DNA from: Vreelandella halophila
GTDB taxonomy: Bacteria; Pseudomonadota; Gammaproteobacteria; Pseudomonadales; Oleiphilaceae
Reading direction: 5' to 3'
Assembly: GCF_019903425.1 (NCBI RefSeq)
Contig: NZ_JACHUZ010000012.1
Location: 248,001-312,000 of the forward strand
DNA length: 64,000 bases
Part shown: piece by piece, positions 15,459 to 18,780 of the stretch
Numbering within the stretch: position 1 is the stretch's first letter
Layout of the letters: each line of letters starts with the position of its first letter
The notes under the pieces: generated by a model
Told to the model about the DNA's origin: nothing
Databases searched by the model: none
What the model saw: only the letters and a program-made list of their open reading frames with translations
Program-made: the position numbers and the translations under genes

Positions 15459-16870
15459 GTCGCATACTCATTGTTGAGGACGAAGCGGTTATCCGCTCGG
15501 CCCTGGAAAAACTGCTGACCCACAACGGCTATGAGGTTGAGGGGGCGGAATCCATTGCGGACGCAACGGCACGGTTCGACCTCAACCACTTTCACCTGAT
15601 CATCACGGACCTGCGTCTGCCGGGCGAACCGGGCACTGACCTGATCCACCGGGCACCCGATGTACCCGTGCTCATCATGACCAGCTATGCCAGCCTGCGC
15701 TCGGCGGTGGATGCCATGAAACTCGGTGCCGTGGATTACATCGCCAAACCCTTCGATCATGGCGAAATGCTCCAATGCGTGGAGCGGATCCTGGCGCAGC
15801 AGCCCGAACCGGAAAACACGCCGGGTCCGGAGAAGGGCAATGGCTCGAGCACCGATCCCTCGCACTTCATGTACGGCGACTGTCCGGCGATGCAGCGCGT
15901 TTTCCATCTGCTCCGCAAGGTAGCGCCCACCGACACCACAGTGCTGATCATCGGCGAATCCGGCACCGGCAAGGAACTCGCAGCCCAGGCTCTGCACAAC
16001 CTGAACCGCCGGGCGCCCTGGAAGCTCATCTCCGTCAACTGCGCCGCCATTCCCGAAGCCCTGATCGAATCCGAGCTTTTCGGCCACGAGAAGGGTGCCT
16101 TCACCGGCGCCGTCTCGGCCCGTACGGGCCTCATCGAAGCCGCGGACGGCGGCACCCTGTTTCTCGATGAAATCGGTGAACTGCCCGCAGAAGCCCAGGC
16201 CCGGCTTCTGCGTGTGCTTCAGGAGGGCGAGATCCGGCGCGTTGGCTCCACCCAAAGCCGTAAGGTGGACGTCCGGATGGTGGCCGCCACCCACCGCAAC
16301 CTCAAAGCCATGACCCGCACTGGTGAATTCCGGGAGGACCTGTTCTACCGCCTCAATGTCATGCAGGTCCGGCTGCCACCGCTGCGCGACCGGGAAGAGG
16401 ACATACTGGGGCTGGCCAAACGCTTTCTGGAGCAGATCGGCGGCCGCATGGCTCACCGCGGTTACACCTTCTCGCCGGAAGCCATGCAGCTCATCAAGCG
16501 TTACCGCTGGCCCGGCAACGTCCGTGAGATGGAGAACGCCATTGAGCGCGCCGTAATACTGGCGGACGGCGATGTCATCACTCCGGAGCTTCTGGACCTG
16601 GATGCCGAGGACGAGGAACCCACCATCTCCACCGGGCTGGTGGGTGCAGGTCAGCCCGCGGAGCCCCGAGGCCGGGAGGAGGAGGCACCCTCGGATCTAT
16701 CCCTTGAGGACTACTTCCAGCACTTCGTGCTCGAGAACCAGGACCGTATGAGCGAAACCGAGCTGGCCCAGAAACTGGGAATCAGCCGCAAATCCTTGTG
16801 GGAGCGGCGCCAGCGACTGGGGATTCCACGCAAAAAATCCGGCGCGCCGGGTTCCAGTGCCAGCCATTGA
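15455..16870 (+). CDS. cbrB: Sigma-54-dependent response regulator CbrB
   Basis: The 471-residue NtrC-class activator has a receiver domain with acidic pocket (VEDE), phospho-acceptor Asp52 (TDLRLPG) and Lys in YIAKPFD. The AAA+ domain has Walker A GESGTGKE, the sigma-54 contact loop GAFTGA, Walker B LFLDEIGE and an arginine-finger region. The C-terminal Fis-like HTH is [19 protein letters not shown]. It is predicted to be phosphorylated by CbrA and to activate the sRNA gene immediately downstream through the sigma-54 promoter at 17020. Confidence 0.95.
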
Positions 16871-16885
16871 CGCCGTGCACACTAC

Positions 16886-16943
16886 TGTTACCCGCTGTTA
16901 CCGCTCGAAACACTGACCCGCAGAACACAAAATGTGAGTAACA
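16886..16943 (+). promoter_or_regulatory. Probable CbrB upstream activating sites (TGTTAC / GTAACA boxes)
   Basis: TGTTAC occurs at 16886-16891 and 16896-16901, exactly one helical turn apart. The inverted box GTAACA is at 16938-16943. They lie about 80-135 bp upstream of the sigma-54 -24 element, a normal enhancer distance. Pseudomonas CbrB sites are, as I recall, built from the same half-sites. Binding is inferred. Confidence 0.65.
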
Positions 16944-17019
16944 ATTCATATCTTTAAATTACCCCCTTTTCAGACCTTACCCCTTCGTAACTCCCTGTCT
17001 CGTAAAGGGCCAATGATTC

Positions 17020-17035
17020 TGGCACAGCACCTGCT
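17020..17035 (+). promoter_or_regulatory. Sigma-54 -24/-12 promoter of the CrcZ-like RNA
   Basis: TGGCACAGCACCTGCT has GG and GC separated by exactly 10 nt, the invariant spacing of RpoN promoters (consensus TGGCAC-N5-TTGC). It predicts a transcript start near 17046, immediately before the first A-rich motif. Confidence 0.82.
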
Positions 17036-17045
17036 TAATTCACCC

Positions 17046-17336
17046 GAAACAAGAAAAAGCGCCCAACAAAAACAAGAACGCGCACTCACAAGGCAGCGGT
17101 CCAACAACAAAAACAAGCTGCCCCAAGGGCTAAAAAACAATAATGAACGCCCTTCGAACTGAGTGTTTTGGCAGCCGAGCTTTTTAGCGGCCATTCCGCT
17201 CTCTGTTGCAAAAACGTTCCGTTCGTCGAAAACAGTCGAGCGTCGACAACAAAAACAACAATGCACGCCGAATAACAACGAAAACACTTTCTGACTGACC
17301 CCTGTTTCGGGGCCGCCTTCGGGCGGCCCCGTTTTG
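17046..17336 (+). ncRNA. crcZ: CrcZ-like Hfq/Crc-sequestering small RNA
   Basis: The 548-bp cbrB-pcnB gap has no credible protein gene but has every part of a CrcZ locus: a sigma-54 promoter, CbrB-type boxes, a terminator, and at least six A-rich ARN/CA motifs. These lie near 17048-17057, 17065-17078, 17103-17116, 17132-17147, 17247-17261 and 17271-17285. Two are displayed in loops of predicted hairpins: GGCAGC (17092-17097) with GCTGCC (17117-17122), and AAGGGC (17125-17130) with GCCCTT (17149-17154). In Pseudomonas, CrcZ titrates Hfq-Crc and so relieves catabolite repression. The roughly 290-nt length is shorter than the Pseudomonas RNA. The 5' end is estimated. Confidence 0.82.
17309..17335 (+). 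terminator. Rho-independent terminator of the CrcZ-like RNA
   Basis: A perfect 9-bp GC stem (17309-17317 with 17322-17330) is closed by a TTCG tetraloop and followed by GTTTTG. This is the strongest intrinsic terminator in the window and it ends before the pcnB leader. Confidence 0.9.
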
Positions 17337-17418
17337 ATTCAGGCCTCCGGACTCGCGCCAGACCGCTTGAATCGTTACACTCGCGCTTTCGGGTCAGACA
17401 GAATCAGCAAGAGACTCC

Positions 17419-18780
17419 ATGGCGAGACGTTTTCTGGAACGGGTACAGAACTGGCTGAGCCAGCTCGGCGGGCAGAACGGGACCGCTCCCCATGAACCCC
17501 GCATCATTTCGCGCGACGAACACAACATCTCACGCCAGAACATCAGCGAATCCGCCAAGAAGGTGCTGCACCGGCTGAATCGCTCCGGGCACGAAGCCTA
17601 TCTGGTCGGTGGTGGTGTGCGTGACCTGCTCCTGGACGGTCACCCCAAGGATTTCGACATCGCCACCAGCGCCACCCCCGAGGAGGTGCACGAGCTGTTC
17701 CGCAACTCGCGCCTGATCGGCCGGCGCTTCAAGCTGGTCCATGTGCTCTTCGGGCGCGAGGTCATCGAGGTGACCACCTTCCGCGGCTCGCCCAAGGACG
17801 CGGATAACGACCCACACATGGATGTGAACGACCAGGGCCGGCTGCTGCGCGACAACGTCTACGGCACCCGCGAAGAGGACGCGCTCCGGCGCGACTTCAC
17901 GGTCAATGCGCTCTATTACGACATCCGGGATTTCACCGTCCACGATTACGCCGGCGGCGTGAAGGACCTGCACAACCGCCAGCTGCGGCTGATCGGTGAC
18001 CCGGTGACCCGCTACCAGGAAGACCCTGTGCGCATGCTCCGGGCAGTGCGTTTCGCCGCCAAGCTGGATTTCACCATCGCCGAGGATACCGCCCAGCCGA
18101 TCCGGGAGATGAGCCACCTGCTGGAGGACATACCGCCGGCGCGGCTGTTCGAGGAAGTGCTCAAGCTCTTCACCGCCGGCCAGGGCGAGACCACCTACGA
18201 GATGCTGAAGCGCTTTGACCTGTTCGCACCCCTGTTCCCGGAATCCGCCAGGGCCATCGCCGAGGGCGAACCGGACGGCGTAATCCAGGAAGCACTGGCC
18301 AGCACCGACCGCCGGGTCCGCCAGAACAAGCCCATAACCCCCTACTTCCTGTATGCGGCACTGCTGTGGCCGGCACTGCAGCAGGCCTGGCGCCAGGAGG
18401 AGGCGGAAACCGACCAGCCGCCCTACCAGGCCCTGCAGCAGGCGGCCGGTGAGACCATCCAGAACCAGACCCAGGCCACCGCCATTCCCAAGCGCTTCAG
18501 CACCCCGATGCGCGAGATCTGGGAGCTGCAGCTGCGGCTGGACAAGCGCAGTGGCAAGCGTGCGGACAGACTGCTGGAGCATCCCCGTTTCCGGGCTGCC
18601 TATGACTTCCTGCTGGTGCGCGAAGCCGCCGGCGAGGACACTCAGGGCCTGGGCGCCTGGTGGACGGAATACCAGGACGCCGATGCCGACCGGCGCCGCG
18701 AAATGCTCCGCGCCCTGGGCGGCGGCGGCAAGAAACGCAGTGGCCGCAAGCGCCGCAAGCCCGCGCGGAACGACTCATGA
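17419..18780 (+). CDS. pcnB: Poly(A) polymerase I
   Basis: PcnB adds 3' poly(A) tails that promote RNA decay. The 453-residue class II nucleotidyltransferase shows YLVGGGVRDLLLDGHPKDFDIA (catalytic DxD), RRDFTVNALYYD, and RFAAKLDFTI with EDPVRMLRAVRF. The C-terminus is very basic (GGGKKRSGRKRRKPARNDS), as usual for RNA-binding PcnB. It lies just downstream of the sRNA terminator and overlaps folK at its stop (ATGA). Confidence 0.95.
   Translation: MARRFLERVQNWLSQLGGQNGTAPHEPRIISRDEHNISRQNISESAKKVLHRLNRSGHEAYLVGGGVRDLLLDGHPKDFDIATSATPEEVHELFRNSRLIGRRFKLVHVLFGREVIEVTTFRGSPKDADNDPHMDVNDQGRLLRDNVYGTREEDALRRDFTVNALYYDIRDFTVHDYAGGVKDLHNRQLRLIGDPVTRYQEDPVRMLRAVRFAAKLDFTIAEDTAQPIREMSHLLEDIPPARLFEEVLKLFTAGQGETTYEMLKRFDLFAPLFPESARAIAEGEPDGVIQEALASTDRRVRQNKPITPYFLYAALLWPALQQAWRQEEAETDQPPYQALQQAAGETIQNQTQATAIPKRFSTPMREIWELQLRLDKRSGKRADRLLEHPRFRAAYDFLLVREAAGEDTQGLGAWWTEYQDADADRRREMLRALGGGGKKRSGRKRRKPARNDS

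Follow-up and report, generated by a model that had tools for sequence, protein, structure and literature searches.

A putative CrcZ-type RNA gene between cbrB and pcnB of Vreelandella halophila, a host outside the Pseudomonadaceae

The 548-nt gap (16871-17418) that separates cbrB, with its last base at 16870, from pcnB, with its first base at 17419, in a 64,000-nucleotide stretch of the Vreelandella halophila genome (hereafter the window) most likely encodes a CrcZ homologue from outside the Pseudomonadaceae, of compact form in this genus, that would act as a decoy for Hfq under the control of CbrB and RpoN. We put the probability that the gap holds a CrcZ orthologue, transcribed under CbrB/RpoN on poor carbon sources and titrating Hfq together with Crc, at about 0.88. 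A preliminary description of this DNA had called the locus CrcZ-like, an identity supported by the gene order, the promoter and the A-rich runs, together with a single Rfam match and a covarying core hairpin.

According to the mechanism proposed here, CbrA would phosphorylate CbrB when the carbon supply is poor, and CbrB would bind TGTTAC/GTAACA half-sites and act with sigma-54 RNA polymerase. The resulting RNA of about 291 nt would start near 17046 and stop at the terminator at 17308-17335. Hfq would be loaded by its distal face onto the six A-A-N runs, which lie in loops or close to the 5' end. Catabolic mRNAs, their start regions cleared of Hfq and Crc in this way, would become free for translation. 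We infer from sequence the transcription of this RNA, its control by CbrB and RpoN, its binding of Hfq and Crc and its physiological effect.

Locus, promoter and A-rich runs

The predicted RNA lies on the same strand as the flanking cbrB and pcnB genes (Table 1), as expected from the earlier claim of synteny with Pseudomonas crcZ. The cbrA product is 51% identical across 976 aa to the CbrA-position protein of P. fildesensis (L032), and a Pfam search at 1e-3 finds no transporter domain in it. Identity to the cbrB product is 58-61% in the eight best loci and at most 47% in the other 72 kept, with values of 59-61% for the CbrB-position proteins of P. fildesensis, Serpens gallinarum and Halomonas maura. 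Among the 29 loci from the family of the window (26 from a CrcZ-model search of 58 genomes and three from a search of 391 genomes; one of them, L019, is only 2.2 kb long), pcnB is found downstream in all 29 and cbrB upstream within the locus in 28.

Table 1. Predicted features of the locus, in window coordinates
Feature	Position	Strand	Basis or remark
cbrA, transporter-histidine kinase, 986 aa	12498-15458	+	Pfam PAS, HisKA, HATPase_c
cbrB, sigma-54-activating response regulator, 471 aa	15455-16870	+	Response_reg and Sigma54_activat
CbrB half-site F, TGTTAC	16886-16891	+	Perfect; invariant in four congeners
CbrB half-site F, TGTTAC	16896-16901	+	Perfect match; invariant in congeners
CbrB half-site R, GTAACA	16938-16943	+	Begins 82 nt before sigma-54 site
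Longest ORF of the gap, 105 aa	16970-17287	-	No NCBIfam family match
Sigma-54 promoter, TGGCACAGCACCTGCT	17020-17035	+	GG-N10-GC; consensus at 10/12 positions
Putative CrcZ-type RNA, about 291 nt	17046-17336	+	Start inferred from promoter, end from terminator
A-rich (AAN) run 1	17048-17059	+	Pattern count
A-rich run 2, predicted hairpin loop	17065-17079	+	Pattern count, MFE fold
A-rich run 3, predicted hairpin loop	17103-17117	+	Pattern count, MFE fold
A-rich run 4, predicted hairpin loop	17133-17144	+	Pattern count, MFE fold
Core hairpin, not A-rich, compact in this genus	17154-17226	+	Covariance model, pairing, covariation
A-rich run 5, predicted mostly in loop	17248-17262	+	Pattern count, MFE fold
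A-rich run 6	17271-17279	+	Pattern count
Intrinsic terminator	17308-17335	+	10 G-C pairs, then TTTT; 93% invariant in four congeners
pcnB, poly(A) polymerase, 453 aa	17419-18780	+	TIGR01942, 556.6 bits

The CbrB-type boxes reported earlier are present as three perfect half-sites, all invariant in four congeners, and at least three perfect boxes arise in 4 of 5,000 dinucleotide shuffles. Their order is F-F-R, with N36 between the second F and R, and the published operator spacing (F-N12-14-R-N15-19-R) is not found among these three half-sites. The published consensus, TGTTAC-N12-14-GTAACA-N15-19-GTAACA (PMC8871633), derives from P. putida and P. aeruginosa promoters, and at least one CbrB-bound target there, PP3420, deviates from it (PMC8871633, PMC6296734). 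Because the consensus comes from two species and PP3420 departs from it, spacing is not counted here as defining CrcZ. A further GTAACT at 16987-16992, one letter off a half-site, is invariant in the four congeners and stands just 33 nt upstream of the sigma-54 site.

Of 126 distances below 200 nt between GTAACA and promoter, 103 fall at 78-83, 88-91, 100-105 or 111-114 nt, clusters that step by about one helical turn. The vector strength of this spacing is 0.49, 0.56, 0.63 and 0.58 at periods of 10, 10.5, 11 and 11.5, and 0.29 and 0.23 at periods of 7 and 13, the best period tried being 11. Several boxes per locus entered these counts, and the periodicity is given no probability because the loci are related.

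The sigma-54 promoter that had been claimed is confirmed as a GG-N10-GC site at 17020 agreeing with the consensus at 10 of 12 positions. A sigma-54 site followed by an AAN run at 26-32 nt occurs in none of 5,000 dinucleotide shuffles, and the promoter-plus-run pattern has a single match in the genome, beside cbrB, while its T-rich control has none.

Counting as an AAN run at least three successive A-A-N triplets, the RNA stretch contains six against a shuffle mean of 1.42, a number reached in 0 of 5,000 dinucleotide shuffles, and in a scan of both strands of the 64-kb window in steps of 30, no second stretch of 291 nt holds four or more. All 29 family loci carry between 3 and 8 runs. When four species of the genus are compared, invariance is 65% for the runs taken together and 62% for the whole gap, and triplet positions 1, 2 and 3 within them are invariant at 77%, 85% and 35%; their conservation signal resides in the triplet phase and hardly in the overall level. 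The preliminary description had named loss of the A-rich loops in related cbrB-pcnB gaps as one of the results that would speak against it, and the runs proved to be kept, phased as AAN in the four species and present in 29/29 family loci. Its count of at least six A-rich motifs also stands. It placed two of them in hairpin loops; in the minimum-free-energy fold more are so placed, namely runs 2, 3 and 4 together with most of run 5. The predicted fold is stabler than that of shuffled sequences (z = -3.65).

The terminator described earlier is likewise recovered at 17308-17335, where ten G-C pairs precede TTTT, although a bare terminator scan is not significant (2 found, 1.5 expected). Within the genus (four species), invariance is 100% for the half-sites, 93% for the terminator, 89% for the core hairpin and 75% for the sigma-54 site, against 63% for the stretch after the terminator, 62% for the whole gap and 51% for the rest of the upstream part.

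The core hairpin and competing explanations

The Rfam CrcZ model RF01675 has one match at E <=0.001 in the 3.5-Mb genome, and it is this gap (E 7.8e-7). The earlier statement that ordinary searches would miss the sequence is therefore mistaken, since the Rfam model finds it, albeit weakly. The score of 32.7 bits compares with a gathering cut-off of 95 bits; the predicted RNA is homologous to RF01675 but outside its membership by the Rfam threshold, and it is not filed under that family because it falls below the gathering score. In the bacterial family of the window the model matches 28 of 37 genomes, elsewhere in the order it matches 4 of 21, and 2 of these 58 genomes pass the cut-off.

Between the A-rich runs lies the core hairpin. 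In the families labelled f1 (that of the window), f2, f34 and f20, it begins 23-28 nt downstream of the point where the final A-rich run of the 5' cluster starts. It spans 66-68 nt in the genus of the window, compared with 145-152 nt in the remaining family loci that were measured, and the Rfam consensus already includes five of its stem pairs. The 5' strand of the core pairs with the conserved 3' strand in 283 of 324 cells (18 sequences, one per genus), compared with 32-54% paired in shifted registers. Strands swapped between genera pair almost equally well (14.85/18, against 15.72/18 for true partners) because both strands are conserved. This test used 44 of the 45 loci with a core, leaving out L008, which has no 3' strand.

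Within the family, 92.1% of cells are paired (19 sequences, 28 pairs). Eight pairs have changed on both sides, a number reached by 1 of 500 shuffles; further pair types number 29, against a shuffle mean of 22.6; and the covariation score is matched by none of the 500. The set comprises 19 of the 29 family sequences, near-duplicates and three whose 3' strand was missed by the first pattern being excluded, and the result is read as support and not as a probability, because the sequences are related and the structure was drawn after reading them.

The preliminary description had proposed a covariance search built from related gaps. A core model made from 15 sequences of f20, f2, f34 and P. fildesensis, with none from the family of the window, recovers 29 of the 29 family loci searched, the weakest at E 0.016. 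The match in the window itself (17154-17225) is modest, with E 0.016 over 344 kb and 7e-5 over 1.5 kb. Other matches are L036 (Serpens, both strands), L008 (f8, E 0.014) and L241 (f37, E 0.14), the last of which lies on the gene strand of its cbrB-pcnB gap, 27 nt downstream of where the third run begins, and is insecure. L241 is the one match among the 45 sources searched outside f1, Serpens and L008, and the model has no match in Halomonas maura, either Gilvimarinus or the Cellvibrionaceae MAG.

A hairpin kept in this way could also be the working part of an Hfq-dependent base-pairing sRNA, in which the A-rich runs would merely load Hfq. The greater invariance of the core within the genus (89%, against 65% for the runs) and its retention across f1, f2, f20, f34 and, more weakly, f8 suit such an sRNA. 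We nevertheless consider it improbable: the core is a closed, covarying stem with no open seed, many of the sources in which the core model finds no match (all but one of 45 beyond f1, Serpens and L008) retain promoter and runs, and six runs seemingly exceed what a loading site would need.

The position of the element, directly upstream of pcnB on the same strand, raises the question of whether it is a 5' leader or attenuator of pcnB and not a separate RNA. However, 83 nt separate the end of the terminator from the pcnB start, the promoter and boxes are of the CbrB/sigma-54 type, and in the loci L249-L251 similar units repeat 410-657 nt apart, too close for each to have its own pcnB; a leader is thus a very improbable reading.

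The earlier view that no protein gene fits the gap agrees with its longest ORF, of 105 aa and antisense, matching no NCBIfam family. This frame is open, at 80-105 aa, in all four congeners compared. Its substitutions by codon position (6/10/7, 6/11/8 and 35/29/34) have no bias and the most distant congener has indels inside it, so that the ORF does not look coding. An artefact of low-complexity sequence or of this small ORF, with no RNA function, might be suspected from the weak matches that A-rich repeats draw and from the frame being open in four congeners, but is just as hard to credit as a leader, given the 0 of 5,000 shuffles, the triplet-phased conservation of the runs, the covariation and the unbiased substitutions of the ORF.

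Hfq, Crc and distribution across the order

The preliminary description had left the presence of Crc to be checked, and the genome encodes it along with Hfq (84 aa, 101.9 bits, flanked by miaA and hflX). Crc has 258 aa and is flanked by pyrE and rph, an order that we take to be the Pseudomonas arrangement. It scores 216 bits against P. aeruginosa Crc 4jg3 and 27 against E. coli exonuclease III 1ako, and it is 42% identical to the Crc-like protein of P. fildesensis. An absence of Crc, suggested by a weak catalytic-domain score, was discarded when the reading frame gave the 258-aa protein. In an alignment with the exonuclease III of the same genome, N7, E34, D151 and N153 correspond to Ser, Asp, Asn and Gln in Crc, and D229, D258 and H259 are retained. 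In the P. aeruginosa Hfq/Crc/RNA complex, R140, K155 and R196 of Crc contact RNA (PMC6422490); here R140 is retained, K155 is replaced by Asp and R196 by Ala.

Evidence for a regulon from A-rich start regions is weak. In a census of 464 kb of the genome with crude gene calls, three successive AAN triplets occur in 7 of 279 start regions. Control regions have them in 1 of 279 cases within genes and in 0 of 279 cases upstream, and shuffles average 3.2. Runs of at least four ARN triplets in start regions are not above shuffles (6, against a mean of 3.7 and a maximum of 9), and the target pattern AAYAAYAAGAG is not enriched, with 5 matches and 5 for its reversed control. Some of the strongest AAN matches in start regions look catabolic, which is an after-the-fact impression.

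Among 391 genomes of the order, CbrB is found at E <=1e-135 in 270 (108 of 138 genera) and RF01675 matches 79, above its cut-off in 21; partial RF01675 matches of about 80-110 nt were not relied on by themselves. A Crc-grade match at <=1e-30 is present in 304, which is not a clean count because this threshold may include NApe-like ExoIII paralogues and miss divergent Crc. The highest CrcZ-model scores belong to f20, taken to be the Pseudomonadaceae; the family of the window is a different one, f1, in keeping with the earlier remark that the host does not look like Pseudomonas.

A strict sigma-54 site is present in 82 of 90 cbrB/pcnB loci examined, and in 73 of the 90 a run starts 20-36 nt after its first base, a rule that holds for 25 of the 39 regions among them that were chosen downstream of CbrB (L213-L251). 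Each of the 88 sigma-54 sites has a run no more than 70 nt away, the distance being 28-31 nt for 66 sites. The 73 loci span 19 labelled families and six named loci, those of P. fildesensis, Serpens, two Gilvimarinus, Halomonas maura and a Cellvibrionaceae MAG. The arrangement is absent from the sampled loci of f6, f7, f33 and f38 and from three loci (genus g4) of the family of the window. The 90 loci, made up of 50 earlier ones and 40 regions (the 39 downstream of CbrB and one surrounding an RF01675 match), were not drawn at random, because most of the 50 came via the CrcZ model and the 40 were hand-picked for family spread, some of them known beforehand to have an adjacent CrcZ match. The count excludes L030, L031, L033, L145 and L146 for want of pcnB, ten f20 loci (L147-L150, L153, L154, L156, L158-L160), 30 CbrB-survey loci and the loci from a promoter-plus-run pattern search. 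That search matched 196 of 293 genomes and its T-rich control 94 of 293, and single distant matches can therefore be due to chance.

The spread of CbrB and of promoter-plus-run loci through the order supports the earlier suggestion that Hfq/Crc-type control is wider than annotated. As what looks like a CrcZ-type gene lies here, the carbon-control circuit described as belonging to the Pseudomonas family alone is probably older and wider. A more far-reaching scheme, which we regard as tentative and somewhat less than evenly probable, is that CbrAB-CrcZ-Hfq is ancestral across the order, with Crc as an optional part, copy number set through tandem duplication of the RNA unit and a second activity, besides the titration of Hfq, residing in the core. 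If the circuit were order-wide, many further lineages of the order would share an Hfq-based carbon hierarchy as a general trait, a phylogeny could date its origin, and species that lack Crc or possess at least two RNA units would be natural experiments on Crc and on CrcZ dosage.

Several observations concern individual families. In f28, 11 of 12 genomes tested have no Crc-grade match (G102, G129, G152, G195, G214, G233, G252, G271, G175, G289 and G306; seven with none and four at 6e-8 to 2e-6), while G069 has one at 1.4e-58. A CbrB match is present in ten of the 11, none being listed for G306. The f28 loci L229-L231 carry boxes and a sigma-54 site along with numerous A-rich runs, of which the first starts 41-56 nt after the first base of the site; they are candidate CrcZ-Hfq systems without Crc. 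The reverse, a Crc-grade match without a CbrB match, is seen in the f26 genomes G067 and G101.

At least two tandem units of promoter and A-rich runs, that is, putative tandem CrcZ-like genes, stand between cbrB and pcnB in L249, L250 and L251 (f46), L222 (f14) and L239 (f37). They also occur in L242 and L243 (f38), where the promoters are mostly relaxed matches, and, going by the pattern alone, at C52 of G070 (f29). In f8, the CrcZ-like unit of L008 (G043) adjoins pcnB with the CbrB gene on a different contig, and in G207 (L218 and L219 being of the same family) about 187 kb separates the CrcZ match from the CbrB gene. The f20 loci L145 and L146 contain the best CrcZ matches of their genomes with neither cbrB nor pcnB in the locus, as expected of CrcY/CrcX-type second copies.

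Comparison with known systems

Decoy RNAs of the RsmY/RsmZ type likewise titrate an RNA-binding protein, but they differ in the protein (CsrA/RsmA), in their GGA motifs and in answering to another regulator. Closer in motif is sRNA99 of Acinetobacter baumannii, which has three AAN motifs, was likened to CrcZ by its authors and has a pattern in Hfq RIL-seq similar to that of CrcZ (PMC12802169). It shares with the RNA of the window the AAN motifs and a host outside the Pseudomonadaceae, a likeness by description only, and the passage on sRNA99 mentions no cbrB-pcnB setting (PMC12802169). In the sources as available, this is the nearest prior statement found outside the Pseudomonadaceae. CbrAB and sRNAs in an Acinetobacter are named merely as future work in the relevant part of PMC8312277, and cbrAB transcripts occur in sea-water metatranscriptomes, in a paper whose accessible portion does not mention CrcZ (PMC5073097). 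Among the matches listed, over open-access titles and the openings of abstracts, no paper reports a CrcZ orthologue outside the Pseudomonadaceae.

Second CrcZ-type RNAs of Pseudomonas, CrcY and CrcX, have the same promoter type and A-rich runs as the predicted RNA, and several f20 genomes have two RF01675 matches above the cut-off. The promoter-plus-run pattern occurs once in the genome of the window, which therefore has no CrcY/CrcX-like second copy by that test.

The closest known system is CrcZ of Pseudomonas and Azotobacter (RF01675), which the putative RNA resembles in its cbrB-pcnB position, half-sites, sigma-54 promoter, six A-rich runs, core stem and terminator. CrcZ of P. aeruginosa is 407 nt long, has six A-rich stretches and titrates Hfq (PMC4063720), whereas the RNA predicted here would have about 291 nt. 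Unlike Pseudomonas CrcZ, the version in this genus has no inner domain in the core, its half-sites are arranged F-F-R at a wider spacing than published, and its host lies outside the family in which CbrAB is described, a system called unique to or exclusive of the Pseudomonadaceae or pseudomonads (PMC8871633, PMC6296734).
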